From NCBI RefSeq assembly GCF_001559595.1, contig NZ_LNTY01000050.1:62001-126000 (forward strand): a stretch of DNA of 64,000 nucleotides, in the 5' to 3' direction. Shown piece after piece: positions 1,878 through 34,907 of the stretch (positions are counted from its first letter, which is position 1; the number at the start of each line of letters is the position of its first letter). The position numbers were made by a program, and so were the translations under genes. A model generated the notes under the pieces. That model saw only the letters and a program-made list of their open reading frames with translations, searched no databases and was not told the DNA's origin. This DNA is from Enterovibrio coralii. Lineage in GTDB: Bacteria; Pseudomonadota; Gammaproteobacteria; Enterobacterales; Vibrionaceae.

Positions 1878-1922
1878 TCGCGCCCCCTTATGTTTGGCGG
1901 GATTATCCCGCCACAGTTTTCA

Positions 1923-3116: not shown

Positions 3117-3139
3117 TTCTTATCCTTTTCTTTCTTGGC

Positions 3140-3802: not shown

Positions 3803-3807
3803 GACTA

Positions 3808-4964: not shown

Positions 4965-5135
4965 GTTTGTTCTCGTTGCTTGGGATTTGCTCTATGCGTT
5001 ATTCACCAACCTCAGGGCGTACAAAACCACAGCGCACAAATAGCACTTGTTTCATCGTTCATAGAGGGAGATGAGAAAGGCACCGCAGCGATACTGCTGC
5101 CACGATGCCTGGTTTACTCGGTCAGCCTGTAAGAA

Positions 5136-6139
5136 TTACAGCGCGTTGATTTTCTCCAGAAGACCATCAGGCCATTGCTCAGAGTAATCTGAATTCAGGT
5201 ATGCACCTTGAACCGTTTCTCTGAAGGCGTCCAAGTTTGGTTCGTAAACGGCCAAGCTTGATCTTTGAAGAACTGCACTAGCTCATCTTCCAGAGCCAAC
5301 TGTTTCTGACGCGCAGATTCTGCGGCGTCATCAGACGCTTTTTGCAAAATGGCTTGTTGCTCTGGTGTGAAGCTATCCCAAACCTTTTTAGAGATTGCGA
5401 TGTAGTTAAGGTCGACCAAGTGACCCGTCAACACGATTTGTTTGGTCACTTCGTAGAACTTGGCGTCTTTGTCAGTCGGCAATGGGTTGTCCTGTCCGTC
5501 AACGGCACCAGTTTGCAGGGCGGTGTATACTTCAGCAAATGCCATTGGCGTCGGGTTTGCGCCAAGCGCTTTACCTAAGAACTGCCATGCATCACTGCCT
5601 GGCATACGGAGCTTCACGCCTTTCAAGTCAGCGGGTGTTTCTACTTTCATGTCATCTCGAAGGTTTACATGACGACGACCGAGGTACATGACGCTAAGCA
5701 GTTTAACGCCAAGCAGATCTTCTGCTTCCTCTTTTAACGGCTCCATAAATTCTGCTGAGAAAACGCGTTGTTGGTGTGCGGCATCGCGATGTACATAACC
5801 TGCCGAGAAAATGGAAAACGCAGGAATAAATTCGGCAAGTTCCTGAGCAGAAGTGATGGTCATATCCAGATTGCCACGCGCAATCGCTTCAAGGTCAGTG
5901 CCTTGCTTGAAAAGAGAGCTGTTCCAGTGTCCTTCGAATTCAGCAAAGTCGGAAACGGCTGGACCAAAAACTTCGGTCATCGCAACTGCGCGTTGGTCTG
6001 TCGCAGACGCAGAAGCGGACATGCGAAGTTTTGTGTCCGCCGCGTGAACGAGAGAAGTTGCGCCCATTGCAACGACCATAGCTGCCGCTGTAACCACTTG
6101 CTTCAGTTTTGGTCGTGCCAATAGTGCTGTCGGTTTCAT
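5136..6139 (-). CDS. TRAP transporter solute-binding protein (DctP family), frame broken near 5255
   Basis: The periplasmic binding protein of a TRAP carboxylate transporter, about 334 residues. I start it at ATG 6139, which has AGGGGT 8 bases upstream and gives a clean signal peptide ending VHAADTK. An in-frame start at 6190 would add 17 residues with no benefit. The body shows the DctP pattern, including VKLRMPGSDAW-like and GAVDGQDNP segments. The reading frame shifts at about 5253-5257. Restoring one base gives the conserved C-terminus ending in WPDGLLEKINAL at a stop at 5136. No permease genes are adjacent. The only dctQM pair in the window is at 27395-29187, so the two loci may form one transporter. 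It is the first gene of the MocA operon. Confidence 0.8.
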
Positions 6140-6258
6140 GCTTATTACCCCTGCATTGTGTTTGTTGGTTTGCATTCCATTCCGTTTCATTATTGGTCGC
6201 GAAAAAAAGTGTTAGCAAGATGTTAACGGTATTTAAAATGAGACAAATAGAGCATTAA

Positions 6259-7455: not shown

Positions 7456-8517
7456 ATGCTGGCAGTTCCCTACATGCAAATGCGAGGAGGAAGCTCAAAA
7501 GGGCTTTATTTTCTCGCTTCTGATTTGCCAAGAAACGAAGCTCTGCGCGATCAGGTCATTCTCGATGCGGTTGGCCGTGATGCCCGTCAGATAGACGGTC
7601 TAGGTGGCGGTCATCCGTTGACAAGCAAGGTCGCTGTCGTTTCCAAGTCTTCTCTGCCCGAATGCGATATCGACTATCTCTTTGTACAGGTAGTGGTGGG
7701 AGAGAATCGCGTCGATACCTCACCGAACTGCGGCAATATTCTTGCCGGTGTTGGCGCGTTTGCTATCGAAAGAGGCTTGGTCGATGCCGAAGATGGCATC
7801 ACGACTGTTCGAGTGAACATGCTTAACAGCGGAAACCGCTGTGACCTTGACGTTCAAACGCCTCATCAGAAAGTCCAATACGAAGGTGATGCCGGGATAG
7901 ATGGCGTGCCAGGCACTGCAGCGCCTGTTATCTGTAACTACAAAGATATCGCAGGCTCGATTACTGGGAGCTTGTTTCCTACCGGAAATATCAAAGATAC
8001 CTTCGACGGCGTAGAAGTCACCTGTATCGACAACGGTATGCCCGTAGTCCTAATGCGTGCATCAGACCTTGGCGTGTCAGGTTATGAATCGGCTGACGAA
8101 CTCAATACCAACGAAACCTTAAAAGCCAAAATCGAATCAATTCGCTTGCAGGCGGGCGAGGCAATGAATCTGGGTAATGTGACTGAAAAAGTTGTTCCCA
8201 AGATGAGCCTAATTGCACCACCTGCAGACGGTGGGCATATCTGCTCACGCACCTTTATCCCAAGAGTCTGCCACACAGCGATAGGAGTACTTGGTGCTGT
8301 TTCTGTGGCAACCGCAGCTGCGATTTCAGGAAATGTCGCCGAAGGCATAGCCGAGATCCCCGACGGGGACGTGAAGACCATCTCTGTCGAGCACCCGTCT
8401 GGCGAGTTCTCAATGACGCTGACATTTGACAGCCAAGGAAATGTTACCAAAGCGGGCTTACTCAGATCAGCAAGATTACTCGCCAGAGGTGAGCTCTTTG
8501 TCCCTATCAAAATATAA
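7456..8517 (+). CDS. galD: 4-oxalomesaconate tautomerase, PrpF family
   Basis: Isomerises the keto and enol forms of 4-oxalomesaconate in the protocatechuate 4,5-cleavage pathway, in the cytoplasm. The 353-residue protein has the PrpF/GalD fold (two diaminopimelate-epimerase-like halves). Recognisable pieces are MQMRGGSSKG (residues 7-16) and DTSPNCGNILAG with the likely catalytic Cys at about residue 92. Length is typical. It is the first gene of the plus-strand lig operon and starts 15 bases after a strong Shine-Dalgarno stretch. PrpF relatives also act on 2-methylaconitate, but the neighbours ligI, ligJ, ligK, ligAB and ligC make the GalD role the clear choice. Confidence 0.85.
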   Translation: MLAVPYMQMRGGSSKGLYFLASDLPRNEALRDQVILDAVGRDARQIDGLGGGHPLTSKVAVVSKSSLPECDIDYLFVQVVVGENRVDTSPNCGNILAGVGAFAIERGLVDAEDGITTVRVNMLNSGNRCDLDVQTPHQKVQYEGDAGIDGVPGTAAPVICNYKDIAGSITGSLFPTGNIKDTFDGVEVTCIDNGMPVVLMRASDLGVSGYESADELNTNETLKAKIESIRLQAGEAMNLGNVTEKVVPKMSLIAPPADGGHICSRTFIPRVCHTAIGVLGAVSVATAAAISGNVAEGIAEIPDGDVKTISVEHPSGEFSMTLTFDSQGNVTKAGLLRSARLLARGELFVPIKI

Positions 8518-8543
8518 AAAAGAAAAGAATGAGGAGTCATGGA

Positions 8544-9416
8544 ATGACCAAACCAAGCTGTATGCCGCCAGATAACAACACGCGAATACCGCGCTTCGTG
8601 GCACCACCGAAGTCGTGTGATGCTCACTGCCATGTGTTCGGTCCGCATGCACAGTTTCCTTATGCGGAAACAGCGACCTACTGGCCGCCTGATGCAGGAA
8701 AAGATGCGCTGAAACGTGTTCACGACAAGCTGGGAATTGAGCGTGCAGTGTTGGTACAGGCGAGCTGCCATGGCCGCGACAACCACGCCATGATGGATGC
8801 CATTGCTTCAAGCAACGGAGCTTACCGAGGTGTTTGCATGGCCGATGACAACTTTACGGATAACGATTTTCAAGAACTACATGAAGGCGGTGTTCGTGGT
8901 ATTCGCTTTAACTTTGTGACCCATTTGGGCGGTGCGCCAAACCTGGAAATGATGGCGAGAGTGCTCGAGCGTGTGAAGCAATACGGCTGGCACTTGGTCA
9001 TTCACGTGAATGCGGAAGACATCATCAAGTACGAAGACTTCTTCAACCGTATCGATATGACCATTGTGGTTGACCATATGGGACGCGTGCCTACCTCAGA
9101 GGGTGTGGGGCAGCAGGCATATCAGATCCTGCTTGAATTTATGCGCCGTGAAAGCTGGTGGGTAAAAGTGTGTGGTTCTGAGCGAATTGCAATGGCTCCG
9201 CCGTTCTATGACGCAGTGCCATATGCGCAAGGCTTGGTGGAAGTGGCGCCAGACCGCGTGCTGTGGGGTACTGACTATCCGCACCCTAATATCAAAAAAT
9301 ACATGCCCAACGATGCGGATTTGCTGGATCTCGTGCCTTTGATTGCGCGCGATGAAACCACCCAGAAAAAGATTCTGGTGGATAACCCAGCAAGACTTTA
9401 CGGATTTGACGACTGA
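8544..9416 (+). CDS. ligI: 2-pyrone-4,6-dicarboxylate hydrolase
   Basis: An amidohydrolase-superfamily enzyme that opens the lactone 2-pyrone-4,6-dicarboxylate to 4-oxalomesaconate. The N-terminal strand carries the HxH motif in CDAHCHVFGP, and the C-terminal end has LWGTDYPHPN with the conserved Asp of the active site. LVIHVNAED and VVDHMGRVP are the other expected metal or substrate strands. Two in-frame starts exist, ATG 8529 and ATG 8544. GAGGAG at 8531-8536 is correctly spaced only for ATG 8544, so the protein is about 290 residues. It lies 26 bases after galD. Family length and neighbours agree. Confidence 0.88.
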   Translation: MTKPSCMPPDNNTRIPRFVAPPKSCDAHCHVFGPHAQFPYAETATYWPPDAGKDALKRVHDKLGIERAVLVQASCHGRDNHAMMDAIASSNGAYRGVCMADDNFTDNDFQELHEGGVRGIRFNFVTHLGGAPNLEMMARVLERVKQYGWHLVIHVNAEDIIKYEDFFNRIDMTIVVDHMGRVPTSEGVGQQAYQILLEFMRRESWWVKVCGSERIAMAPPFYDAVPYAQGLVEVAPDRVLWGTDYPHPNIKKYMPNDADLLDLVPLIARDETTQKKILVDNPARLYGFDD

Positions 9417-9455
9417 TTGGCTTTACCCGTCAAGAATGCAAGGAAGGACAGAAGT

Positions 9456-10165
9456 ATGTCTATGAGAACGATTCAAGGCGTAGCGGTTAAACATATAGAA
9501 CGTGCCGATGCCAACGTCATTGAAGGCTTGGCGGCTTGTGGCAGTGCGACCGTACATGAAGCGCAACAACGTACAGGCAACCTAAACCATGAGCTGCGTC
9601 CGATTTACAAAGGCGCACAAATTGCGGGAAGCGCAGTGACTGTTCTAGCGCAGCCGGGTGATAACTGGATGGTGCATGTTGCTATCGAGCTTTGTCAGCC
9701 AGATGATGTACTGGTGATCGCGACCACATCGCCATGTGCCGACGGTTACTTCGGGGATTTGCTGGCGACCTCGGCTCAGGCGAGAGGCGTGCAGGGACTG
9801 ATCATTGATGCGGGTGTCCGTGATACCAAAGACCTGACGGAAATGAACTTCCCTGTGTGGTCAAAAGCGGTGTCCATCAAAGGGACCGTAAAAGCAACGT
9901 TGGGCTCGGTCAATGTGCCTGTGATTTGTGGTGACCAGCCGATCTATGCTGGCGACGTAATTGTTGCAGATGATGATGGTGTGTGTGTTGTGCCACGTGC
10001 AACAGCGGAAACTGTGCTGGCATCTGCGCAAATGCGGATGGAAAACGAAGAAACAAAACGCGGCATGCTGGCTCAAGGCATTCTTGGCTAGACATGTACA
10101 ACATGCGCCCAAAGTTAGAACAAGCAGGATTTCGCTACGTGGATAAGCTGGAGGATTTGGAATGA
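9456..10165 (+). CDS. ligK: 4-carboxy-4-hydroxy-2-oxoadipate aldolase, frame broken near 10088
   Basis: The last enzyme of the 4,5-cleavage route. It splits 4-carboxy-4-hydroxy-2-oxoadipate into pyruvate and oxaloacetate and often also decarboxylates oxaloacetate. The RraA-like class II aldolase fold shows [14 protein letters not shown], holding the Arg-Asp pair of the metal site. ATG 9456 has AGGAAGGA 7 bases upstream. An upstream TTG at 9417 is not needed. An apparent stop at 10089 cuts the protein short, but one added base at about 10086-10090 continues it as [17 protein letters not shown] to a TGA at 10165. That TGA overlaps the ligJ start, a tight coupling that supports the longer, intact protein of about 236 residues. 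Confidence 0.83.
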
Positions 10166-11210
10166 GCAAGGAACCGTTAATCATTGACTGTCACGGTCAC
10201 TACACCACCGCACCGGATGAATTGGGCGAGTACCGTGAACAGCAAAAGAAAGAGTTGGCGATTGATCCTCTGTTTGACCACGTTAAAGGGATTGTGAACA
10301 TCTCTGATGACCAGATCCGTGACAGTCTCGAAGGCGCTCAGCTGAAGTTGCAAAACGATCGCGGCACGGATGTCACCATCTTCTCTCCGCGTGCAAGCTG
10401 GATGGGGCACCACATTGGTAACCAAACCACTAGTAAGTATTGGACGGAACACTGTAACGAGCTTATCTACCGTATTACGGAGCTTTATCCGCAAAACTTC
10501 ATCGGCGCAGCGCAATTACCGCAATCACCAAATGCGGATATGACAGCCAGTGCCGCGGAGCTGGAACGCACCGTCAAAGAGTTTGGTTTTGTGGGTTGTA
10601 ACCTGAGCCTGATCCATCAGGTGGCTACTGGACAGCACCGCCGCTAGACGACAAGTTTTATTACCCAATCTACGAAAAAATGTGTGAGTTGGAAGTGCCA
10701 GCAATGATCCATGTAAGTGGCTGTTGTCACCGCTGTTTCCACACTACAGGTTCACATTATCTGGGTGCAGACACCACGGCGTTCCAGCAGCTGATGATGT
10801 CGAAAACCCTATTTAAAGACTTTCCTGATCTGAAGTTCATCATTCCACATGGTGGTGGTGCAGTGCCTTACCACTGGGGTCGATTCCGTGGTCTGTGTGA
10901 CATGATGAATCTGCCGTCGCTGACAGAAATCATCGAAAACAACATCTACTTTGATACCTGTGTTTACCATCAGGAAGGTATCGATTTGTTGTTGGAAGTC
11001 GTGCCAATCGAAAACATTTTGTTTGCATCAGAAATGATTGGTGCAGTGCGTGGTATTGACCCGATGACTGGGCATTACTTCGACGATACCAAACGTTACA
11101 TCGACGGTTCTAAGCTTAACGATGAAGACAAAGCGAAAGTCTTCAACGGCAACACCCGTGATGTGTTTGCCCGCATGGATGCCAGATTAAAAGAAGTGGG
11201 ATTGATCTGA
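10162..11210 (+). CDS. ligJ: 4-oxalomesaconate hydratase, frame broken near 10609
   Basis: Adds water to 4-oxalomesaconate to give 4-carboxy-4-hydroxy-2-oxoadipate. It is the amidohydrolase-type LigJ rather than the unrelated GalB. IIDCHGHYTTAP at the N-terminus gives the HxH metal motif. AMIHVSG, FIIPHGGGAVPYH and ILFASEMIGAVRG supply the later metal-site strands. The frame shifts at about 10606-10611. One more C gives NLSPDPSGGYWTAPPLDD, which joins both parts into about 349 residues, the normal family size. The gap to ligA is 13 bases. The break is most likely a sequence error. Confidence 0.85.
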
Positions 11211-11223
11211 GAAGGAAGCAGTA

Positions 11224-11661
11224 ATGCGTGAACACAGAGATTATGACGATATTCCGGGCACCTATGTCTTTGACGGGGAAATGTCGCGTGCAGGATATCA
11301 TCTGAACATGTTTTGCATGTCGCTGAATAAAGCAGAAAATCGCGACCAATTCCGCGAGAGCGAGACCACATACATCAGTAAATTCCCCATGACGGCTGAA
11401 CAGCGCGATGCTGTATTAAAACGCGATTGGCTAGGCATGCTGCGTCTGGGTGGCAACATTTACTACACCTTTAAAATCGCGATCTTTGATGGCATGACAA
11501 TGCAACATGCCGGCGCCGCGATGTCAGGCAATGACATGACGTTTGAAGACTTCAAGCAGATGATGCTGAATGGCGGTCGTCCCATTGAAGGCAACCGCAG
11601 TAAAGCGGAATGGGCTGAGTATTACGAAAAGCCTGAAAACAAGGAGCAGTACGATGGGTAA
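11224..11661 (+). CDS. ligA: Protocatechuate 4,5-dioxygenase, alpha subunit
   Basis: The small subunit of the extradiol dioxygenase that opens protocatechuate between C4 and C5. At 145 residues it has the usual length of LigA. It is all helical, with the recognisable stretches SRAGYHLNMFCMSL and DWLGMLRLGGNIYYTFK. LigA caps the active site of the catalytic beta subunit. AAGGAAG lies 5 bases before ATG 11224. Its stop codon overlaps the start of ligB by 8 bases, which fits equal expression of the two subunits. Confidence 0.9.
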   Translation: MREHRDYDDIPGTYVFDGEMSRAGYHLNMFCMSLNKAENRDQFRESETTYISKFPMTAEQRDAVLKRDWLGMLRLGGNIYYTFKIAIFDGMTMQHAGAAMSGNDMTFEDFKQMMLNGGRPIEGNRSKAEWAEYYEKPENKEQYDG

Positions 11662-12538
11662 GATTGTTGGCGGAATAGGGACGTCGCATATTCCATCGAT
11701 AGGCGCAGCCATGGATAACGGCACCATGGTAGGGGAATACTGGCAACGTTTTGTAAACGGGATTCAGCCTGTTCGTGATTGGATGGAAGAGGTGAAGCCA
11801 GATGTTTGCCTGATTGTTTACAACGATCATGCGTCGGCATTTTCGCTGGAATCTATTGCGACCTTCTCCATCGGCGTTGCACCGCAGTTTAACCCTGCGG
11901 ATGAAGGCTATGGTCCGCGTCAGGTGCCAGTTTGTGAAGGTAACAGCGAGCTGGCTTGGCACATTGCCGAATCACTGATATTGGATGAGTTCGACATGAC
12001 CATTGTGAACGAGATGGATGTCGACCATGGCCTGACAGTCCCACTGTCTGTGGCTTATGGGCAACCCAAAGCTTGGCCTTGTCAGGTGATTCCGCTGGCG
12101 GTCAACGTGGTTCAGTACCCGCAGCCAACCGGAAACCGTTGCTACAACTTGGGCAAAGCCATTCGCAAAGCGGTCGATAGTTTCCCCGATGACACCAAAG
12201 TGGCCATCTTCGGCACGGGTGGCCTTTCTCACCAATTACAGGGTGAGCGTGCAGGTTTGATCAACGTCGAGTATGACTGCAACTGGCTCGATCTTATGGT
12301 TAATGATCCTGATGCCGCGAAGAAAGTTTCCCACACTGAATACCTGCGTGAAACGGGTTCAGAAGGCATCGAGGCGATTATGTGGTTGGTAATGCGCGGT
12401 GCGCTTGATGAAAAGGTGGACGAAGTTTACCGATTCACCCATGCCCCGGTTTCAAACTCGCATTATGGCTTGACGATTTTAGAGAATGCGAGTGACAGGG
12501 TCACGGAAGGCACTATGTCAAAAGAGCCAAACATTTAA
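11654..12538 (+). CDS. ligB: Protocatechuate 4,5-dioxygenase, beta (catalytic) subunit
   Basis: The iron-containing catalytic subunit of protocatechuate 4,5-dioxygenase, a class III extradiol dioxygenase. With ligA it makes 4-carboxy-2-hydroxymuconate-6-semialdehyde. The first iron ligand His lies in GGIGTSHIPSIG (H12) and the second in YNDHASAFSLE. EMDVDHGLTVPL holds the acid and catalytic histidine region. The true start is ATG 11654, with AAGGAG 7 bases upstream. A longer open frame from 11570 lies inside ligA and is not coding. The protein is 294 residues, close to known LigB proteins. Confidence 0.9.
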   Translation: MGKIVGGIGTSHIPSIGAAMDNGTMVGEYWQRFVNGIQPVRDWMEEVKPDVCLIVYNDHASAFSLESIATFSIGVAPQFNPADEGYGPRQVPVCEGNSELAWHIAESLILDEFDMTIVNEMDVDHGLTVPLSVAYGQPKAWPCQVIPLAVNVVQYPQPTGNRCYNLGKAIRKAVDSFPDDTKVAIFGTGGLSHQLQGERAGLINVEYDCNWLDLMVNDPDAAKKVSHTEYLRETGSEGIEAIMWLVMRGALDEKVDEVYRFTHAPVSNSHYGLTILENASDRVTEGTMSKEPNI

Positions 12539-12548
12539 GGAATAGACA

Positions 12549-13493
12549 ATGAAAATCATAATGGTGGGTGAAGGCGCTTTCGGTCACAAGCATCTGGATG
12601 CGCTAAAGAACATTGACGATGTGGAGATCGTATCGATTGCCGGCGGTGTAGAAGAAAGCACCAAGGCAACGGCCGAAAAATATGGGATCGCGCACTGGAC
12701 ATTGGACTTACAGGAAGCGTTGGCTCAACCGGGCGTTGAGGCGGCAATTATTACGTCGCCGACACCTATTCACGCCAAACAAGCCATCGAAGTGATGAAA
12801 GCGGGCAGGCACGTCATGGTAGAAATCCCAATGGCGGATTCTCTGGCTGACGCCCAAGCCGTGTGTGATGTTCAGAAAGAAACTGGATTGGTTGCTATGG
12901 CAGGTCACACCCGCCGTTTCAACCCAAGCCACCAATATCTGAACAAGAAGTTCCGCGCGGGTGAACTGAACATTCAACAAATGGATGTGCAGACCTATTT
13001 CTTCCGTCGTAAAAACCTGAATGCTTTGGGTCAGCCGCGCAGCTGGACCGATCATCTGCTTTGGCACCACGCTTGCCACACGGTTGACCTGTTTGCTTAT
13101 CAAACGGGCGAAGAGATTGTGGATGTGATGGCCATGCAAGGACCAAAACACCCAGAACTGGGTATCGCCATGGATATGAGCATCGGCATGAAAACCACCT
13201 CTGGCGCGCTGTGTACCTTGTCGTTGTCGTTCAATAATGATGGCCCGCTAGGTACGTTCTTCCGATATATCTGCGACAATGGCACTTACATCGCGAGATA
13301 CGACGACTTGGTTGACGGTAAAGAAAACCCCATTGATGTCAGCAAGGTCGATGTGTCTATGAACGGTATCGAACTTCAAGATCGCGAGTTTATTGCTGCG
13401 ATCCGCGAAGGACGCGAGCCAAACGCCAGTGTGAATCAGGCATTGATTGCTATGAAGGTGCTGGATCGCATCGACAAAGTACTGGGTCAGTAA
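12549..13493 (+). CDS. ligC: 4-carboxy-2-hydroxymuconate-6-semialdehyde dehydrogenase
   Basis: Oxidises the hemiacetal form of 4-carboxy-2-hydroxymuconate-6-semialdehyde to 2-pyrone-4,6-dicarboxylate with NAD(P). It is a Gfo/Idh/MocA-family protein of 314 residues, the size of LigC. The Rossmann loop is MVGEGAFGHKHL at the N-terminus. At the position of the family EKP motif it has VEIPMAD. The loss of the lysine fits LigC-type enzymes, which oxidise a hemiacetal rather than a sugar hydroxyl. It follows ligB by 10 bases. Operon position, between the dioxygenase and the other lig genes, is the strongest argument for this function over the other MocA paralogues of the window. Confidence 0.85.
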   Translation: MKIIMVGEGAFGHKHLDALKNIDDVEIVSIAGGVEESTKATAEKYGIAHWTLDLQEALAQPGVEAAIITSPTPIHAKQAIEVMKAGRHVMVEIPMADSLADAQAVCDVQKETGLVAMAGHTRRFNPSHQYLNKKFRAGELNIQQMDVQTYFFRRKNLNALGQPRSWTDHLLWHHACHTVDLFAYQTGEEIVDVMAMQGPKHPELGIAMDMSIGMKTTSGALCTLSLSFNNDGPLGTFFRYICDNGTYIARYDDLVDGKENPIDVSKVDVSMNGIELQDREFIAAIREGREPNASVNQALIAMKVLDRIDKVLGQ

Positions 13494-22910: not shown

Positions 22911-22944
22911 AAGAAGATAGCCGTCAGATGACGGCTATCTTCTT
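22911..22944. terminator. Bidirectional intrinsic terminator
   Basis: AAGAAGATAGCCGTCA (22911-22926) and TGACGGCTATCTTCTT (22929-22944) are perfect 16-bp arms with a 2-base centre. The structure ends the zur operon on the plus strand and, on the minus strand, overlaps the stop codon of the dehydroshikimate dehydratase gene at 22943. Confidence 0.8.
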
Positions 22945-24795
22945 ATCCCGCTAATTCTCTCGCCTGCATGGTTAATCGCATCTGGCTGTTCGCTGCTCCG
23001 AAGCCTTGATAGCCATTTCTCTGCACAATTTCGAAGCAGAATCGTCCTGCAAACATCGTGGTGTAAAGCTGATAGAAGCTTCCATGCTCGTCTTCGTCAT
23101 AAAGAATATTGAAGCGTTTTAGCTTATCGATGGTTTCATCAGACAAGGAAAAACGTGCCGCCAAATCGTCATAGTAATTTGCAGTAACTGGCATGGTGGT
23201 TGTTTGCTGTTTTTCCATAAACTCAGCAGTGGCGAAGATATCATTTGTCGATAACGCGATATGGTTGACGCCAGTCCCTGCGTATTGGTCAAGAATACGG
23301 CTGGATACAGTACGCGAAGCTTGGCTGGAATTCAGTGTAAAGCTGACGCCTTTGTCTGGCGTTTGAAGAGCCTGACTTTTGATTAGTCCGCCGGGGTCAG
23401 AGACATCGACAGTCGGCATGGTTTTCATTTTGAACATTGAGCGGTAAAGCAGCACAGAGTGGAGCATTTCTTCATAGCTCATGGTGATAGCGACATGATC
23501 CACACCGTTTAGAAAAGCGAAGGTGACGGCATCATGATTCCAGACAAACTCTCGCTCCCAGTGAGGAGGTTGCTCTGCATCATCAACAAGATAAAGCAGG
23601 CTTTCACCGGGACCGTAAATCGCTGGAATACCATGTGTGTCGGTTTCTGGATTGCCATACACCGGCCTAAACTCTAGTTTTTTGGCACGCTCAAGCATGT
23701 CTTCGACCTTGTTGCATGTCAGCCCAACAGCACAGACGGAAACTCCATGCTGTTGATGAAACTTTTGCGCAAAGCTGTCCGGCTCCATATTCATCACAAG
23801 ATTGATATTGCCTTGCCGCCACAGTTCTACTTCTTTGCGCTTGTGGGTCGCCGCGTGACTGAAGCCTAGCTGCGAAAGCAGTTTGGTCAGGCCAAGCTTT
23901 TCGTTCCCACTCACCGCAAACTCGATAAACTGCACTTCGCTGGGAGAGGATACATCTGGTATCTTCGCCGTTTCTGTTGTGGTGTTTTTCTCTGCTGCTT
24001 GGTTGGCGTAAACCAAGGAGCGATAGCCATCTCGTGCCGTTTTTTCGGTAGAACCTGCTCGAAATTGATCGTTAAAGATCTCCAATGAGAAAGGACCATC
24101 GTAACCAGTGGCATGAAGGTTTTTTACGAAATGATTAAGTGGTAAGTCGCCTTGTCCTGGGAAGCAACGATAGTGGCGGCTCCAACTTAAATGATCCATC
24201 GAAAGGCTTGGTGCATCGGCAACTTGCACGAGGAAGATTCGGTCACCGGGAATGTTGAGCATGGTGTCGAGTTCGGTTTGGCGAGAGAAGATATGAAATG
24301 TATCGAGCACAAGCCCACATTCTCGTGATTTGCCCGTCGCACTATTTCCCAGGAATCGCGATAGTCGTAAACGTACTTACCCCATCCTAATGCCTCGTAT
24401 GCAACACGCATATTGCGCGTCGATGCGCGTTCACCCAGTTCATGAAAATCATCTGCTGCACGCTGAATACCGCCTAAAGCATGAGGAGAGACGCTGCTGC
24501 ACACCATCAACAAATCTGTACCCAACTGTTCCATCAAATCAAACTTTCGCTCTGCGCGGTCAAACGCCTTTTGACGGTAAGGCGCAGGAAGTCCCTCAAA
24601 GTCTCTAAACGGCTGATAGGTGACGACTTCTAGCCCGTGATCGTCGAGCATGCTTCGAATTTCATGCACTGACCCATTGTGGGTGATTAAGTCGTTTTCG
24701 AAGATTTCGATACCTCTAAAACCTGCCTTGGCAATGGCTTCGATTTTCTGTCTTAACGTGCCTGAGAGGCAAACCGTGGCGATGGAGTAAATCAT
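22943..24795 (-). CDS. quiC: 3-dehydroshikimate dehydratase fused to a VOC domain, frame broken near 24310
   Basis: Converts 3-dehydroshikimate to protocatechuate, linking quinate/shikimate to the ring-cleavage operon. The protein is about 617 residues. Residues 1-280 are an AP-endonuclease-like TIM barrel (IEIFENDLI near the start, FSLEIFNDQF at its end), and the rest resembles 4-hydroxyphenylpyruvate dioxygenase (GVNHIALSTNDI, GRFCFEIVQRNGYQGFG). This fused form is known as QuiC1 in Pseudomonas. The frame shifts at about 24308-24313. One G restores GLVLDTFHIFSR. It is the last gene of a minus-strand operon after aroQ, 3 bases away. The second domain may be structural or regulatory. Confidence 0.85.
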
Positions 24796-24798
24796 GAC

Positions 24799-25250
24799 TT
24801 ACTTCCCTAACTTTGCGATAAGACCGTCAATGGCTAGGGCGTATCCCTCTATGCCAAAACCAACAATCACGCCCTCTGCTACGGGAGAAAGATAAGAGTG
24901 GTGCCGGAATGATTCACGAGCATGGACGTTTGAAATATGTACTTCAATAACAGGAACTTCGGCTGCTTTTATCGCGTCGTATATCGCTATTGATGTGTGG
25001 GTGTATGCACCGGCATTAAACACAACGCCAATCATTTTGCCTTCTTTCACAGCACGACCTGCGCTGTGAAGGCTTCAATGAGTTCGCCTTCATGATTACT
25101 TTGAAAGCACTCTATCAGCACACTGTGCTTGTTTCCCGTGTTGCGGCAGAGTGTTTCGACGTCCGCTAAGGTGCTGTGGCCATAAAGACCTGGCTCTCGC
25201 TGACCGAGCATGTTGAGGTTTGGCCCGTTCATTACCAATATGGATTTCAT
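24799..25250 (-). CDS. aroQ: Type II 3-dehydroquinate dehydratase, frame broken near 25062
   Basis: Catalyses dehydration of 3-dehydroquinate to 3-dehydroshikimate. The small type II enzyme (about 150 residues) shows the conserved start [21 protein letters not shown] with the catalytic Tyr and Arg, SNHEGELI, and [10 protein letters not shown] with the substrate-binding asparagine and histidine. The frame breaks at about 25060-25064. One base joins both halves to the normal length. Located between a MocA dehydrogenase and quiC, it should serve quinate breakdown rather than aromatic biosynthesis, though the reaction is the same. The catabolic name quiB would also be suitable. Confidence 0.85.
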
Positions 25251-25261
25251 CGTTTGTCTCT

Positions 25262-26326
25262 CTATGCAATGTCGTCGATGTAAACAGTGCGACCAGTTTT
25301 CACGGCTTCAACCACAGCTTCAGTTACTCTTAAATTCTGAAGGCCGTCACGGACAGTTACCAACGGTTTTTCTTCCTTGCGGATCACGCGACAGAAGTGG
25401 TTTAGTTGCTCGACAAGCGGGTCTTTGCGCTCCAGAGAGACGTTTTCACACACAAAGGGCTTCCACCACGAGCGATCCTCATCATTTTGGTAATACTTGA
25501 GGCGCATCGTGGGCACAGAAATCGAACCTTTGGTGCCAGCGATGTGATAGCAATCTTCGTCGGGATAGCTGGAATAGGCTTTGTTCTCTTGCGAAGTTTG
25601 TTCCCAGCTTTGGCCTGATCCCGCGGTGTCCGACAGCAAAAATGTTCCTAGTGCACCATTGGCAAAACTCAGATTGATGGAAACCGTGTCTTCCACTTCA
25701 AAACGGCGGCGTCGGTGCGAAGCTATTGATTGGACAGCGACGATTTCGCCACAGAGATAACGAAGGTTCCCAATATCGTGAATGAGGTTGATCAGAATCG
25801 GGCCGCCGCCTTCCTTCGTTCGCCAAGGTGCTGCTGCAAAATAGTCATCAGGTTTGTAGAACATCGCACTGCCATGAGTGGCAACTAACTGCCCGATAGC
25901 GCCAGAATCTATGATCTCTCGCGTTCGTTTGATGATCGGGCTGTGCATGCGGTGATGCCCGACAAGCAAAGTGTCCCAAATTCCCGGCTCTTTCGTGGCG
26001 ATATCTAACAGCGAATTCGCTTCTGCTACTGTGTGAGAAACGGGTTTTTCTATGAGTGCAGGCATGCGATATTCAATGCACAGCTTGGCTTGTGGGACAT
26101 GCAAATTATTGGGTGTGGCGAGGATAACGCCATCGGCTAGTCCAGCTTCTAATAACTCAACAAGCGTGTCGAAATGTGGGACATCGTATTTTTCCGCTAA
26201 CCCTTTACTGGCTTCAAATGGGTCAACGATAGCGGCTAACTGGCAGTGCTCGCTCTCCGATACCAAGCGAATATGGTTCTTTCCGATCAACCCTGCGCCA
26301 ACGACCGCAATTCTTGGTTTCTCCAT
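25262..26326 (-). CDS. Gfo/Idh/MocA family oxidoreductase, candidate quinate/shikimate dehydrogenase
   Basis: A 354-residue NAD(P)-dependent dehydrogenase. The Rossmann loop is VVGAGLIGKNHI (about residues 8-19), and IEKPVSHT is the family EKP motif. The remaining part is a full-length substrate domain with the usual H in NLIHDIGNLRYL. It lies between the GntR regulator and aroQ, with an 11-base gap to aroQ. The operon has a dehydratase for dehydroquinate and one for dehydroshikimate, but no ordinary quinate or shikimate dehydrogenase. This enzyme is the only oxidoreductase in the operon, so it is the candidate for the first oxidation. That assignment is inference; the family usually acts on sugars and inositols. 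Confidence 0.75.
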   Translation of the reverse strand: MEKPRIAVVGAGLIGKNHIRLVSESEHCQLAAIVDPFEASKGLAEKYDVPHFDTLVELLEAGLADGVILATPNNLHVPQAKLCIEYRMPALIEKPVSHTVAEANSLLDIATKEPGIWDTLLVGHHRMHSPIIKRTREIIDSGAIGQLVATHGSAMFYKPDDYFAAAPWRTKEGGGPILINLIHDIGNLRYLCGEIVAVQSIASHRRRRFEVEDTVSINLSFANGALGTFLLSDTAGSGQSWEQTSQENKAYSSYPDEDCYHIAGTKGSISVPTMRLKYYQNDEDRSWWKPFVCENVSLERKDPLVEQLNHFCRVIRKEEKPLVTVRDGLQNLRVTEAVVEAVKTGRTVYIDDIA

Positions 26327-26362
26327 GTCTGACTAACGTCCTTATTGTCTTTTGATTATTTG

Positions 26363-27013
26363 TTACTGCTTCTTGTGGGTGTTGTTTTCTCTCATTCGTC
26401 GTAAAAAGCCACCAAGATGCGCTTCCAGTGCATCAACACAGGCTTGTAGATCGCGATTCAATGCGGCTTCAAGTACTGCATGGTGTTCATCAACGACGTA
26501 TTTCCCTCGAAATCCCTCAGTACGAAGCTCCATCACAACAAACTGACGAAACTGGTCGTAAATCTGGCGGTGGTAATGCATGTGGAGCTCTGATTGGCAG
26601 GCACCGATCAAGGCAGCATGGAATTCGTAATCACAGCGATGCCACATCATGAAATATTCATCGATGTTCTCGCGCATCTTGCTCTCTACGTGTTCGAGTT
26701 TGTGGTGCGCTGCAACGAGGTTGCTTTCCCATTCCATATCACCATTTTCAAACGACGCTCTTGCCCCGTCCGTTTCAAGAAGAATGCGAAGGCGCGTGAG
26801 CTCCTCCATTTTTTGAATAGAGAAGCTCGCGACATGAAAGCCTTTTTGACCTTCAGCGATAACGAGCCCGTCGCTAGAGAGGCGGGTTAGGCACTCGCGC
26901 AATAGATTCACGCCACTTCCATAGCGTTCTTTGAGCGATTCCATCCTTAACCGACTTCCGGGTTCGAATTCCCCTTTGAGCAAGTCAGTGCGAAGTGTCT
27001 CGTACAGCGTCAT
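26363..27013 (-). CDS. GntR family transcriptional regulator (FCD/FadR subfamily)
   Basis: A 216-residue regulator. The N-terminal winged helix includes PGSRLRMESLKERYGSGVN and LTRLSSDGLVI, and the C-terminal all-helical FCD domain carries Asp/His positions that bind metal and an organic acid (DYEFHAALIGAC, DEHHAVLEA). It heads the minus-strand quinate operon, 36 bases before the MocA gene, and faces the dctQM genes across a 381-base divergent region. It is therefore well placed to control both uptake and breakdown. The ligand is probably a quinate-pathway acid (inference). Confidence 0.85.
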   Translation of the reverse strand: MTLYETLRTDLLKGEFEPGSRLRMESLKERYGSGVNLLRECLTRLSSDGLVIAEGQKGFHVASFSIQKMEELTRLRILLETDGARASFENGDMEWESNLVAAHHKLEHVESKMRENIDEYFMMWHRCDYEFHAALIGACQSELHMHYHRQIYDQFRQFVVMELRTEGFRGKYVVDEHHAVLEAALNRDLQACVDALEAHLGGFLRRMRENNTHKKQ

Positions 27014-27394: not shown

Positions 27395-27898
27395 GTGAAA
27401 ACTATTCTGCTTTGGTTACAGCGGATAGCGGATGGCGTTGCGGTTGTTATGTTAGCAGCAATGTTCCTAATTTTTTGTGCGCAGATTTTTGCTCGCTATG
27501 TCTTGAATGAACCGATTGGCTGGTCAGCAGAGATCCTGCTGACGCTTTGGCTATGGGTGATTTTCTGGGCTGGCGCATTTTGTCTGCGTCACAAAGATCA
27601 TATTCGCTTTGATCTGCTGTTTTTAAGTGTGCCTGGGAAGGTGCAACGTATTTTTCTTATCTTGTCGGCGTTAGGCATCATCATCGGATTTGGGATGAGC
27701 TTTCTGCCTACATGGGACTACATCACGTTCTACAAGATCAAGAAAAGTGCCATTTTGAAATGGCGTCTCGACTATGTATTCAGCATATACGGCGTATTCC
27801 TCGGCGCGATTATTCTCCGCTATGGCCTTGCACTGATTCAGTACTTGGATCCGAACTACAAAGTGCAAGATGACAAGGATGAGCAGGTGGAAGAATGA
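27395..27898 (+). CDS. dctQ: TRAP transporter small permease (DctQ)
   Basis: The small membrane subunit of a TRAP carboxylate transporter, 167 residues with four hydrophobic segments. It has the family pattern FCAQIFARYVLNEPIGWSAE and LWLWVIFWAGAF. The start is GTG 27395, with GAGAGG 8 bases upstream. Its stop overlaps the dctM start by 4 bases. No binding-protein gene is next to it. The orphan DctP at 5136 is a candidate partner. Context with the quinate operon suggests import of quinate, shikimate or a related aromatic acid, powered by the sodium or proton gradient. Confidence 0.88.
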   Translation: MKTILLWLQRIADGVAVVMLAAMFLIFCAQIFARYVLNEPIGWSAEILLTLWLWVIFWAGAFCLRHKDHIRFDLLFLSVPGKVQRIFLILSALGIIIGFGMSFLPTWDYITFYKIKKSAILKWRLDYVFSIYGVFLGAIILRYGLALIQYLDPNYKVQDDKDEQVEE

Positions 27899-29187
27899 GT
27901 TTAGCTTTAACACTTTGTCTGGTAACGGTACTGTTACTGGCGGCGTTTGGGACGCCGGTCTCTTTCTCAATGATCATTGGTGCCATCGTCTATTTGGCCG
28001 TCAGTGGTCAGGATTTAGCACTGGCTGGCGAGCAGATTATTCAGGGCTTTTATAACAGCTTTATCTTGCTGGCAGTTCCGCTTTTCATTGCAGCTGCGAA
28101 TATCATGAATGCAGGCAGCATCACAGATCGACTACTCCAATTTTGTGTCGCCATGGTTGGCCATTTTCGTGGCGGTCTTGGGCACGTTAACATCGTTTCT
28201 AGTTTGATCTTTTCAGGCATGTCAGGTTCTGCGGTAGCAGATGCTGCTGGGGTGGGGCGCGTTATCATTAATATGATGACCAAAGACGGCCGCTATCCGC
28301 CTTCTTATGCAGCAGCCATTACGGCAGCATCAGCAACCATTGGCCCGATCATTCCGCCTTCGATTCCTATGGTAATTTACGCCTTAGTATCAGATACCTC
28401 AGTCGGCTATCTGTTTATCGCTGGTTTGGTGCCAGGTCTGTTGATGGGCGTGGTATTGATGGGACTAAACGCCTACATGGCGACGAAAATGGATATCCCG
28501 AAAGAGCCAAAAACACCGGCGAAGGATATTCCAAGGATCACCATTCGTGCCTTGCCTACCTTGATGATGCCAGCGATTCTTCTGTTTGGTATTTATGGAG
28601 GCGTAACCACGCCAACTGAAGCGGCGGCAGTGGCTGCAGCTTATGCGTTAATTCTCGCGGTGGCATATCGCTCTATTAGCTTTAAGCAGCTTTACATGGC
28701 GTTGAAAGAAAGTGCCTATTCCTCCGCTTCTGTCGGTTTGGTTATTGGTTCTGCACTGATCTTCAACTACATCGTAGCGACTGAAAACGTACCCACGTCG
28801 ATTGCAAATCTGATTGCAGCAGCAGACCTTTCGCCATTGCAGTTCTTGCTCATCGTAAACCTGATTTACTTAGGGCTGGGCTTCTTGCTTGATGCGACGA
28901 CGGTTATTTTGGTTATCGTGCCGCTATTTGTGCCAGCTTGTCGTGAACTCGGGATCGACTTGGTTCACTTTGGAGTGGTGACCATTGTTAACCTAATGAT
29001 TGGTCTTATAACACCACCTTATGGCGTGCTGCTTTTCGTGATAAATGGCACCACCAAGATTCCGTTAGCAGGGATTATAAAACAGGTGATTCCGTTTATC
29101 TTCGTACTGCTTGGTGCCTTGTTGGTGATGATCTTATTCCCAGACCTTGTGCTAACCATGCCAAGGCTGATGGGATATCAAGGTTAG
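27895..29187 (+). CDS. dctM: TRAP transporter large permease (DctM)
   Basis: The large membrane subunit that forms the transport path, 430 residues and about 12 membrane spans. Family features are NIVSSLIFSGMSGSAVADAA near the first third and GPIIPPSIPMVIYA, followed by GVTTPTEAAAVAAAYAL in the second half. The length is normal. It overlaps dctQ (ATGA) and is followed by a strong terminator, so dctQM is a two-gene transcript. Substrate specificity is set by the binding protein, which is not encoded here. Confidence 0.9.
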   Translation: MSLALTLCLVTVLLLAAFGTPVSFSMIIGAIVYLAVSGQDLALAGEQIIQGFYNSFILLAVPLFIAAANIMNAGSITDRLLQFCVAMVGHFRGGLGHVNIVSSLIFSGMSGSAVADAAGVGRVIINMMTKDGRYPPSYAAAITAASATIGPIIPPSIPMVIYALVSDTSVGYLFIAGLVPGLLMGVVLMGLNAYMATKMDIPKEPKTPAKDIPRITIRALPTLMMPAILLFGIYGGVTTPTEAAAVAAAYALILAVAYRSISFKQLYMALKESAYSSASVGLVIGSALIFNYIVATENVPTSIANLIAAADLSPLQFLLIVNLIYLGLGFLLDATTVILVIVPLFVPACRELGIDLVHFGVVTIVNLMIGLITPPYGVLLFVINGTTKIPLAGIIKQVIPFIFVLLGALLVMILFPDLVLTMPRLMGYQG

Positions 29188-30662: not shown

Positions 30663-31801
30663 TTAGTCTTCAGATGAAATCTTACGTGCGACGTGATCAT
30701 TACCAATGATCATGCCTTCAACTTCTACCTTGTTGCCAATGAGTGAGTCGAAGCTTAAACCGTCTTCATACTCAGTGTTGGCGTCTGTGAAGATGGTTTT
30801 ACCTTTCATTTTGAAGGATTTTGCATCGCTGTCGATATCGCTGATGTATCCTTCGAAATCGAATTCGTAATCGTCCCAATCAAAGTCGAAATCAAAATCG
30901 TCTTCAAATTCGATTTCTTTTGCCACGGTGCGTTGGTTCTTGGTGACATATTCAACTTCAACGTTCACACCTGGCGCAACTGGGATTTGCTGCCATCATC
31001 AAATTCAGTCGATGGTAGGATGTCAAATTGGCCACGGTAGTTCACTTCAAAGCGACTGTAATCGTTCGCTACCCAAGTCACGACGCCCTCAATTTCACCT
31101 TTGCCGTTGATGCTATTAAATGCTTTCAGTTTGATAGATTCAGCAATCAACTGGCCCGTAGACTCGTTATAGCTTCCCAGTACTTCCGCCCACGCACCAT
31201 TGCGCAGTTTTTTGATGTTGTTCACCAGTCTGTCATCGAATAAGACGGTGAGTGAACTGCCCAATTTGAAGGTGTTATTTTCAAAGTTAACTGCAGAAAC
31301 ACGACCTTCTGCTTCAGCCATTCCATTTGAGTCATATTCGAACTTAACAACAGAGAGTACTTTGTAACCCATGTTTGCGGACGGCAGGGTCGAAACCATT
31401 ACCCAATCGCCATTCTGGATTTTTGGAGACAGGGAAATAAATTTAAGTTCAACACCGCTGACCTTAAATGTGCCTTGAAGACGGTCTATGTGCGTGATCT
31501 TACCGGTGAACGTTGGGTCTAACTCGACGTTTGCACTCGTGATTGATCGACCGTTGGTGTTCAGAGCTACCATCATGTTTGGCGTCAACATGTCGTTTTG
31601 TAGCGATTGACCTTGATAAGCCACGGTGCCAACGTCGTAAGTTTGGTTATTAACCGTGATTCTTGAACCAGAGACTTGTTCAATTTTGCCTTCAACCGAC
31701 ATGGCAGAAGCAGGAGACGTGGTGGTATTGCCACTATCGCTGCCACCGCCACACGCTGTCAATGCGAGAGTAAAGAGAGGGAAAAGCGCGTAACGTTTCA
31801 T
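30663..31801 (-). CDS. DUF5666-type lipoprotein, frame broken near 30987
   Basis: An exported lipoprotein of about 379 residues. The signal peptide ends in the lipobox LTAC (MKRYALFPLFTLALTACGGG). The mature part repeats an OB-like beta module, for example GKIEQVSGSRITVNNQ, GKITHIDRLQGTFKVSG, GRVSAVNFENNTFKLG and GYISDIDSDAKSFKMKG. This is the arrangement of DUF5666 repeats. The frame shifts at a run of three A (30986-30988 on the opposite strand). A fourth A restores GSKIPVAPGVNVEVEY and joins both parts. An acidic stretch (EFEDDFDFDFDWDDYEF) precedes the last repeat. Function unknown; the gene stands alone. Confidence 0.75.
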
Positions 31802-32026: not shown

Positions 32027-34907
32027 CTACTCACTCATCACTTCTGTTTTGGCTTCCGGGACTTCTCTGTGCGGTTTTCTCGAAACAGGACAAGAAACCT
32101 CGTCGAGTAAATACAAAATAGAGCTATATGGAATGCCCGCGTGATGTGTTAACCCAATCTCGCAGGTTCGACTGTTGCTAAAGCCGCGTGTGCAATTTTC
32201 GGGTATCTGATCTTTCAAAGGGGCTGTGGCTGCCGCATTGAGTTCGGGCGTAAAAAAGCCCTTGTCGCCGGCAAAACCGCAGCATTCAATGTGCTCGGGT
32301 ACGACAACACGTTTAGCGCAGGCTTTTGCGAGGTTTAATAATGAATCCGCTAAGCCCATGCGTCGTGTGCTGCAGGTAATGTGAAGCATCACGGTTTCAT
32401 CTACGGGCGTAATCGCTAAGTCTTCCAGTAAAAACTTAATCACGAACTCAGAAGGTTCATAAATCTCAAGCGGGAAAGAGAACTGCTCTTTACTGATTTT
32501 CACGCAAGGCTGGTATCTATGAGAACGGGGAGCTTACCCAACTCACTGGCTTGCCAAAGAGCGGCTTCTAGGCGGTAGCTTTTCTCTTTGAAAATGTCCT
32601 TCATGCCTTTACTGTCGTAAGGCATGCCGCAGCACTGTTCATCTAGCCGTTTGGGAATAATGACTTGATATCCTGCGCGCTCTAGGAGTGACATTGTCAC
32701 TTCTGTTAGGGTTCTGTCTTCATCACTTTTAATGTCATTGCCCATATTACGACTGGCACAAGAAGGGTAATAAACAACGCGCTTAGCTTTCCATGACTCG
32801 CTGGTTTTCGGTGTATGAGTGTTCGCGGTTGGATAATCTGGGTGCCATTCTGGTGTGCTGCCGTTGGATAGTTTTCGTAATCCGTTGACGGTTTTATCAA
32901 GGGCCTTTTCGCCAAGTATTTTTTGCATGCTTGCATTGGCTTTGAGTCCAAAGCGCGCGATTGCGGTTGTTGCACCGAAGTGATTGGCAGTCCAAGACGC
33001 GATAGGCGTGAAACGCTTGTATTTCTCGGTTCTCACTTGCTTGATTAAATCGCCAGTGTTTATTCCAACGGGACAGCGATCGGCACACAAGCCCGTTGCT
33101 GCGCAGGTATCAACGCCAAGGTAGTTGAACGTTTTCTCCAATGCTTTGTATTTTTCACTTTGGTCATCATGTTTGAGTCGCTGCATTTCTCTATAAAGCA
33201 CGATGCGCTGGCGTGGAGATAAAGAGAGAGTGCGGGAAGGACATACTGCTTCACAGAAGCCGCATTCGATACAGCGATCGATCAACGCATCAGCTTTTGG
33301 CATCGGCTTCAAGTGAGTAATGTGCGCATTCGGATTGTCGTTGATGATCACTCCTGGATTAAGCAGGCCTTTGGGGTCAAACAGGGCTTTAATTTGACAC
33401 ATCAATCTGTAGGCGTGGGCTCCCCATTCTAGTTCTACATACGGAGCCATGTTACGCCCCGTGCCGTGCTCTGCTTTGAGTGAACCTTGGTATTTCACTG
33501 CCACAAGCTGTGCCACGGCATCCATGAAGGCTCCGTAGCGTTCCACTTCCACCTCGGAGTCAAAACCTTGAGTGAAAACGAAGTGCAGGTTTCCTTCAAG
33601 GGCATGGCCAAAAATGATCGCTTCGTTGTAGGCGTACTCATCAAACAAGGCTTGAAGCTCTCGCACACCCGCAGCCAAACGTTCAACAGGAAACGCAACA
33701 TCTTCAATGATGACAGTTGTGCCTGCCTCTCTAACGGCGCCAACTGCAGGGAACATACCTTTGCGAATGCCCCAGAGTGTATTTACGGTGTCGGCATCGG
33801 ATGTGAACATGACTTGATGTGGAATATCGAATGCGGATATCGCCGCCATTATGGTTCGGCATTGTTGGTAGAGTTCATCCTCACTTGCGGCTCGACTTTC
33901 GACCAGCAGGGCACTGTGTTCAAGCGTAAGGGTTGGCATGAAATCGGGCATGCCAGGCTTATCGGCGACGGATTGAAGAGCGCGTCCGTCCATCATTTCT
34001 ACCGCTGACACTGGCGTGCTCGCCAGAATGGACACGGCATTGGATGCACTTTCAATGTCATTAAAAACAAGGAGTGCAGACGCTTTGTTTGGGTGCTCAA
34101 TGACGGTGTTATAGGTAATTTCCGCAATGAATCCGAGTGTACCTTCAGAGCCCACCATCAAATGGGTGAGCACATCAATGGGATCGCTGAAATCAACCAA
34201 GGCATTCAATGCATATCCGGTGGTGTTTTTGAGTCGATATTTATGTTGGATACGTTCGGATAGTGCCGAATCTGCTTTCACTTCATCGCAAAGTGTCGCA
34301 ATGCCATCCAGCAGGTCTTTATGGCTGTTTCTAAATTGGCGTACTGATTCATCATCGCCGGTATTTAATACGGTGCCGTCATGAAGCACTAAGGTCATGG
34401 CATCGACGGTTTTATAGGTGTTCTGCGCTGTGCCGCAGCACATACCACTGGCGTTGTTTGCCGCGATACCGCCAATTTTACAACTGTTGATTGAAGCGGG
34501 GTCTGGGCCAATCTTTCTCTGGAAAGGAATGAGGTATTTATTGGCATCTGCGCCAATCACCCCGGGTTGGAGCTTGATCCTTTTTCCGTCTTCCAATGTT
34601 TCATGGTCACGCCAATTGTCAGTAAGGGTGATTAAAACGGAATCGGAAACGGCTTGACCGGAAAGGCTGGTGCCTGCGGCTCGGAACGTGAATGGAATAT
34701 TGGCATTACCACAAGTTTGAATAATAAAAACGATGTCTTCGAGATTATCTGCCTGAACAATCAGTTCTGGGATCATCCTGTAGAAACTGGCATCGGTGCC
34801 ATAAGCCAGACGCTTAGCATCGTCGTTGATGATGCGTGATTCAGGTATCCGTTCGCGTAAACGTGATGTCAGCGCGTCGTAATCTTCTTTTCTCGCTTCC
34901 CTGCCAT
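32027..34907 (-). CDS. dld: FAD/Fe-S D-lactate dehydrogenase, frame broken near 32508 and 34902
   Basis: A membrane-linked D-lactate oxidising flavoprotein of the Dld-II type, about 960 residues after adding one base at each of two breaks. Order of domains: FAD-binding PCMH domain (FRAAGTSLSGQAVSDS, GIAANNASGMCCG), FAD-linked C-terminal domain, 4Fe-4S ferredoxin motifs (CIECGFCEAVCPS, CAATGLCADRCPVG), then two CCG domains (CCGMPYDSKG, CCGFAGDKG). ATG 34907 lies 5 bases after the lldG stop with AAGGAA as ribosome-binding site. Its frame joins the main part by one missing base near 34902. A second break near 32508 separates the last 157 residues. The layout with lldE, lldF and lldG matches the Shewanella dld-II lldEFG cluster. 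Confidence 0.85.

Follow-up and report, generated by a model that had tools for sequence, protein, structure and literature searches.

The plant acids quinate and shikimate occur in abundance, and metabolic engineering makes use of their conversion to protocatechuate. As far as we know, the entry enzymes described from bacteria to date either depend on pyrroloquinoline quinone (PQQ) or are AroE-like. The first type, which we take to be represented by the membrane-bound, PQQ-dependent QuiA of Acinetobacter and Pseudomonas, carries out the same first step toward protocatechuate that is proposed below. The second type, in which we place YdiB, QsuD and the fungal QutB, catalyzes the same proposed reaction and works with the same partners. 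Several AroE-type enzymes act on both quinate and shikimate. This work deals with a stretch of 64,000 nucleotides from Enterovibrio coralii (the window, contig NZ_LNTY01000050.1), and with a minus-strand operon in it that would be dedicated to quinate/shikimate catabolism. In contrast to the AroE-type systems, the oxidoreductase of this operon belongs to the Gfo/Idh/MocA family (hereafter the MocA protein) and the only AroE-family gene of the genome lies elsewhere, while no QuiA-type gene was found above cut-off in the genome. We consider it quite likely that the MocA protein is the quinate and/or shikimate dehydrogenase of the operon, with nicotinamide adenine dinucleotide (NAD) as cofactor.

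The operon comprises the following features:

26363..27013, minus strand: GntR/FCD-family regulator, first gene of the operon (Pfam GntR and FCD above cut-off)
25262..26326, minus strand: Gfo/Idh/MocA oxidoreductase, putative NAD-dependent quinate and/or shikimate dehydrogenase (354 amino acids, frame intact)
25047..25250, minus strand: N-terminal piece of aroQ (type II 3-dehydroquinase), interrupted by a frameshift (DHquinase_II positions 2-60)
24799..25050, minus strand: C-terminal piece of aroQ (DHquinase_II positions 65-137)
24187..24795, minus strand: N-terminal TIM-barrel piece of a quiC-like dehydroshikimate dehydratase (NF042435 positions 1-173), in-frame homology stopping near 24307
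22943..24310, minus strand: remaining barrel and C-terminal domain of the quiC-like dehydratase, the latter similar to 4-hydroxyphenylpyruvate dioxygenase (HPPD) (NF042435 positions 163-624; AP_endonuc_2, Glyoxalase_5)

The initial annotation had described an operon with a dehydroquinase and a dehydroshikimate dehydratase. Both sequences are there, but each of them is broken by a frameshift that had gone unnoticed. The two aroQ pieces reach 73.9 and 116.4 bits with DHquinase_II (cut-off 23.3), and neither of them alone reaches the cut-off of TIGR01088. The quiC pieces score 204 and 405.7 bits with NF042435, the QuiC equivalog model (cut-off 1200), and ten intact relatives from the same genus score 614-633 bits; since this cut-off is unmet, the enzyme is called QuiC-like. 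The two-domain layout of QuiC, a TIM barrel followed by an HPPD-like domain, is represented here by AP_endonuc_2 and Glyoxalase_5, and is encoded by one frame of 617 amino acids in each of the two relatives compared (G055 and G059).

The genome of the strain, of 5.5 Mb and listed as 100% complete and 5.45% contaminated, was searched for a classical quinate dehydrogenase. A single Shikimate_dh_N gene was found in the whole genome by profile search. It passes two shikimate dehydrogenase models (390 bits against a cut-off of 221, and 272 against 200), and its neighbors are what we take to be the usual biosynthetic context of aroE. With regard to the PQQ type, no gene in the whole genome is above the cut-off of TIGR03074 (glucose/quinate/shikimate family), which gave eight partial matches. 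The five frames behind these matches fit best TIGR03075 (methanol/ethanol family), whose cut-off is passed by two of them, the other three being split pieces below it. Two methanol/ethanol-type PQQ dehydrogenase genes of this genome lie on the contig C55, both divided between two overlapping frames, and another lies on C25 in one frame. The earlier claim that the operon has no PQQ-type or AroE-type quinate dehydrogenase therefore extends to the 5.5 Mb of the genome, with its one AroE-family gene and no TIGR03074 gene above cut-off. The genome search for quiA or ydiB that had been proposed with that claim was run, and it returned neither a PQQ-type gene above cut-off nor a second AroE-family gene. 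As for dehydroquinases, no match to the type I enzyme was obtained in the search, and a second, unsplit type II aroQ sits on another contig, so that the aroQ of the operon is presumably an extra, catabolic copy. A further type II aroQ is likewise present in all 14 genomes searched for it.

The assignment of the oxidoreductase to the Gfo/Idh/MocA family, already made in the initial annotation, is borne out by its intact frame and by its Pfam domains. GFO_IDH_MocA, _C and _C3 are all above cut-off, with 76 bits for PF01408 (cut-off 24), 87 for PF02894 (22.9) and 86.8 for PF22725 (27). None of the Pfam or NCBIfam matches of the protein at E ≤ 0.001 is to a shikimate dehydrogenase family, and the protein stays under every NCBIfam cut-off that it matched, including that of the inositol dehydrogenase IolG (TIGR04380; 118.4 bits against 355). 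The AlphaFold2 model has a mean predicted local distance difference test score (pLDDT) of 93.1 and a predicted template modeling score (pTM) of 0.90. Its best matches among solved folds, with Z scores of about 33-37, are 3db2, 5uhw, the glucuronide-3-dehydrogenase 8tdi, WlbA and anhydrofructose reductase, together with levoglucosan and inositol dehydrogenases and the cis-4,5-dihydrodiol phthalate dehydrogenase 7x1x (Z 33.8, root-mean-square deviation 2.3, 321 residues aligned). These scores are too similar to single out a substrate. Enzymes among these matches oxidize ring hydroxyls of cyclitols and, in the case of 7x1x, of a ring carboxylate; in chemical terms, the fold can thus act on ring hydroxyls, also beside ring carboxylates. 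The IolG-type and phthalate dihydrodiol enzymes share with the MocA protein the common fold, the Rossmann domain and the chemistry of ring-hydroxyl oxidation, but only about 20-25% identity in structural alignments.

Several residues of the MocA protein are strictly conserved. K94 (in the motif E93-K94-P95), H183 and D35 are invariant in the 53 rows of the alignment; K94 and H183 are presumably the catalytic lysine and histidine of the family, and D35 suggests NAD as the cofactor. In the same 53 rows, position 179 is always Ile or Leu and position 180 always Asn. Comparison of 60 rows of the clade with 7 distant rows gave a set of clade-specific polar residues (S129, N187, Q243, E257, D258, T273, K277, D327 and N331), which are candidates for mutagenesis only. 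Among named records, the closest proteins are those of Grimontia celer and G. indica (92% each) and Enterovibrio sp. ZSDZ35 (90%), and in the family sample the gene is present in 11 other genomes of the same genus, broken in one of them. The base of the MocA tree contains open forks and its outgroup branches have a length of 10, so that only its starred groups were used: one formed by Grimontia, Enterovibrio and Veronia and, separately, one by the other Vibrionaceae. The relative at the locus L147, whose reading frame had been set wrongly, was omitted both from the tree and from the clade-specific comparison.

The linkage of the MocA gene with the genes of the pathway was followed in 150 Vibrionaceae genomes (MocA at E ≤ 1e-40, QuiC at E ≤ 1e-60, matches covering only the HPPD-like half being counted as ordinary HPPD). 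The MocA gene is found in 21 of them, and a QuiC that includes the dehydratase part in 20, at full length in 18, as positions 1-388 in one (G016) and split in one (G000). All 20 QuiC genomes carry MocA, and in all 20 QuiC adjoins MocA or is separated from it by aroQ only. In G081 (87% complete), the one other genome with MocA, the gene is spread over three frames and QuiC gave no match. The chance figure for this association is 3e-25 without tree correction; since the genomes are related, it should be weighed as a few independent gains or losses spread over five genus groups. The order GntR-MocA-aroQ-quiC is shared by Grimontia, Enterovibrio, Veronia and Vibrio penaeicida, while in five other genomes (G012, G129, G099, G011 and G096) MocA-quiC follows a set of genes for a tripartite ATP-independent periplasmic (TRAP) transporter. 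The region of Photobacterium sp. DA100 (G132) contains aroQ, and no AroE-like gene was found there. When AroE-family genes (E ≤ 1e-5) and TIGR03074 genes (E ≤ 1e-60) were counted in the 22 MocA-bearing Vibrionaceae, G081 included, the latter were absent from 21 and represented by one gene in G011.

A wider scan with one genome per species retrieved 327 MocA relatives, of which the best 80 were used as loci. These 80 belong to Vibrionaceae, Pseudomonas, Paraburkholderia, Burkholderia, Caballeronia, Comamonadaceae, Marinomonas and others, and their linkage was counted by tblastn. In 54 of the 80 there is an aroQ on the same strand within 2.5 kb; in 42 it follows directly downstream (gap below 150 bases), in 57 it is present somewhere in the flanks, and 12 have an AroE-family gene within 3 kb. 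The corresponding count of 17 for QuiC is left out of the evidence, since plain HPPD genes may be included in it. At the genome level, QuiC (E ≤ 1e-90) is present in 32 of the 34 genomes searched behind such loci, a count that covers MocA-bearing genomes only. Three genomes that match QuiC along most of its profile and gave no MocA match were also considered. Two of them (G421 and G514) have TIGR03074 genes above cut-off, in a family that includes glucose dehydrogenases, and G514 has in addition four AroE-family genes. The third (G454) has no TIGR03074 gene and carries a second AroE-family gene within its QuiC cluster, which is thus an AroE version of the locus, with TRAP, AroQ and QuiC genes and without MocA (L157).

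There are more distant MocA relatives, of 38-47% identity, many of them in Rhizobium. A class-wide sample of 369 genomes helped little, as its eight MocA matches were that of the genome studied here and seven of only 39-45% identity, one of which (G209) shares its contig with QuiC. At the locus L155 of G209, a MocA of 46% identity is accompanied by GntR, TRAP, QuiC-like and AroE-like genes, with no aroQ in the stretch read; this locus may lie at the limit of the quinate/shikimate clade.

Because no classical dehydrogenase is found genome-wide and because the gene is linked with QuiC and AroQ across many genera, the MocA protein is the best candidate for the oxidation step. The initial annotation had offered it as a new route of entry for quinate or shikimate, a suggestion that the genome-wide absence and the linkage strengthen and that we still infer from sequence. 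The pathway, including the substrate, cofactor and direction of the enzyme as well as transport and regulation, would run as follows. Quinate and shikimate would be imported by a TRAP transporter. The MocA protein, with bound NAD, would oxidize the C3 ring hydroxyl, turning quinate into 3-dehydroquinate and perhaps shikimate into 3-dehydroshikimate. AroQ would dehydrate 3-dehydroquinate to 3-dehydroshikimate, from which the QuiC-like enzyme would form protocatechuate, and the lig genes, as the presumed sink, would open its ring. The whole gene set would be controlled by the GntR regulator. The linkage of MocA to aroQ speaks for quinate as substrate, and shikimate may be one too, given that in the other Vibrionaceae MocA is linked to quiC without aroQ.

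The genes to which transport and ring opening are attributed lie outside the operon:

27395..27898, plus strand: TRAP small permease DctQ, divergent from the operon (Pfam DctQ), in the same place in related Vibrionaceae loci
27895..29187, plus strand: TRAP large permease DctM (Pfam DctM and TIGR00786 above cut-off)
5195..6190, minus strand: TRAP solute-binding protein DctP (TRAP_S1 above cut-off), a possible partner of DctQM 21 kb away
7456..13493, plus strand: lig genes for protocatechuate 4,5-cleavage (OMA_tautomer and ligK above cut-off; Pfam LigA and LigB)

The DctP of the window has 69-75% identity to those encoded beside GntR-MocA in Enterovibrio, Veronia and V. penaeicida. In these relatives it stands together with the permease genes, from which it is apparently separated by 21 kb here. 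It belongs to a minus-strand cassette (852-6190) made up of DctP, a Gfo/Idh/MocA protein, a protein of 220 amino acids without any Pfam or NCBIfam match, a second Gfo/Idh/MocA protein and a LacI regulator. The part made up of oxidoreductase, 220-residue protein and oxidoreductase recurs beside aroQ and quiC in another locus (L150; 64, 54 and 69% identity), where it stands behind a different DctP; the substrate of the cassette may be another ring acid. Also in favor of the proposed pathway, one representative of a neighboring MFS transporter has as its best named equivalog the shikimate transporter, with 264 bits, below the cut-off of 538. The lig set consists of an OMA tautomerase, a LigI-like hydrolase, LigK, LigJ (split), LigA, LigB and a LigC-like protein, the names LigI, LigJ and LigC being assumed by us from family and gene order. 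It is in the window without adjoining the quinate operon, and lig-type genes also occur within the MocA-QuiC regions of other Vibrionaceae.

Of the other explanations, the one that survives best is that the MocA protein acts on another hydroaromatic acid (a quinate epimer, dihydroshikimate or a conjugate) in an accessory branch, with shikimate being oxidized by a reversed AroE or by an AroE-like enzyme; we regard it as unlikely. Several observations count against a quinate/shikimate dehydrogenase and, in part, favor this alternative. AroE-like genes stand alongside MocA in many clusters: two AroE-family genes are present in 7 of the 22 MocA-bearing Vibrionaceae, an AroE-like gene accompanies MocA in several Comamonadaceae and Caballeronia loci, and the five Vibrionaceae regions with MocA-quiC behind a TRAP set pair aroQ with an AroE-family gene and MocA with QuiC, so that in such places MocA might do something else. 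Neither aroQ nor QuiC is found in the flanks of 20 of the 80 loci, a few of which have short flanks, and two of the 34 genomes, Hydrogenophaga 2FB and Variovorax Sphag1AA, have no QuiC. In the one distant locus read, that of an Azospirillum relative of 46.5% identity, no quinate gene is nearby, and the claim is for this reason confined to the closer clade. Within the protein itself, the position that we take to be that of the catalytic Asp, four before the His in a register that is likewise assumed, is Ile or Leu (position 179), followed by the invariant Asn. The operon of this strain has frameshifts in aroQ and quiC, and the MocA gene of a Grimontia relative (G071) has an internal stop.

A further point in this sense comes from the fungal QutH of the Aspergillus nidulans QUT cluster (NRRL3_10284 in A. 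niger), which has Gfo/Idh/MocA domains and is induced by quinic acid (PMC12610400), and which is likened here to the MocA protein by its broad family. That paper reports that the A. niger gene is upregulated 6-fold on quinic acid and 245-fold in a qutX deletion, describes the function of QutH as unknown, and argues that it is not essential (PMC12610400). Unlike the MocA protein studied here, QutH coexists with a separate, working quinate dehydrogenase (PMC12610400). By this precedent, a link to quinate does not by itself make a Gfo/Idh/MocA protein the quinate dehydrogenase.

Against the action on another acid stands the fact that 15 of the 22 MocA-bearing Vibrionaceae have exactly one AroE-family gene, which would leave quinate without an entry enzyme despite the second aroQ noted above. 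A single AroE run backwards could feed shikimate into the pathway, and would give quinate no entry. The earlier view that MocA stands in place of the usual dehydrogenase applies to Grimontia/Enterovibrio, Veronia, V. penaeicida and Photobacterium sp. DA100, with one AroE-family gene each, but an AroE-like gene is carried as well by the seven Vibrionaceae and the Comamonadaceae and Caballeronia loci just mentioned. The Caballeronia sp. M1242 plasmid (L163) is annotated as aroE-MocA-aroQ, with MocA named by family only; these three genes continue a run of CoA-transferase, MaoC, VOC and ketopantoate-reductase-like genes.

According to a second and less probable alternative, the cell imports 3-dehydroquinate or 3-dehydroshikimate made outside it by other bacteria, in which case no dehydrogenase would be required ahead of aroQ and quiC, and the MocA protein reduces or repairs a by-product. 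This would agree with the TRAP genes that lie near MocA in 20 of 20 Vibrionaceae QuiC loci, given that the substrate of the transporter is unreadable from sequence. Nonetheless, QuiC and MocA are either together or both absent in 149 of the 150 Vibrionaceae, the exception being the broken MocA, and such a strict association is unexpected for an optional repair enzyme. We give this import scenario little credit beside the role of MocA as the quinate and/or shikimate dehydrogenase.

The state of the operon in this strain deserves separate attention. Both aroQ and quiC are in two overlapping frames each, and are single frames in the two relatives compared. The comparison with these relatives covered 21 window genes and showed five of them to be split, namely aroQ, quiC, ligJ (10162-11210), a gene for a DUF5666 protein (30669-31801) and that of a large FAD/FeS oxidase (flavin adenine dinucleotide and iron-sulfur; 32027-34881). 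The damage is therefore not special to the quinate operon. In the aroQ and quiC pieces on either side of the breaks, nonsynonymous divergence (dN) is 0.017-0.092, while synonymous divergence (dS) is 1.7 in one of the 12 comparisons and has reached saturation in the remaining 11. Taken together, this suggests error-rich sequence or very recent damage rather than decay of the quinate operon in particular, although function in this very strain is uncertain because aroQ and quiC are broken. The idea of a dead operon, with aroQ and quiC as pseudogenes and the MocA gene as a remnant, could draw on these breaks, on the three-frame MocA of G081 and on the internal stop in G071, but it is weakened by the three further split genes and by the low dN of the pieces, is very improbable, and even if true would leave the role of the family unchanged.

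In the open-access literature searched, with subscription papers outside its scope, no bacterial Gfo/Idh/MocA quinate or shikimate dehydrogenase was found, and a text search of the description of Grimontia indica (PMC3897461) returned no carbon-source terms. In a broader form, the proposal is of a third, unrelated family of quinate/shikimate dehydrogenases, which would use NAD, belong to the Gfo/Idh/MocA type and be coupled to AroQ or QuiC in Vibrionaceae, in Pseudomonas, in Burkholderiaceae and in Comamonadaceae. For Grimontia/Enterovibrio it would provide the sole entry enzyme, and it might account for the fungal QutH as well; we hold this extended claim to be likely, with somewhat less assurance than the assignment in the operon itself. 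If true, a soluble Gfo/Idh/MocA enzyme would be a third solution for the entry of quinate and shikimate, genome annotation could name a gene that annotated records designate by its family only, and a testable idea would be available for QutH.

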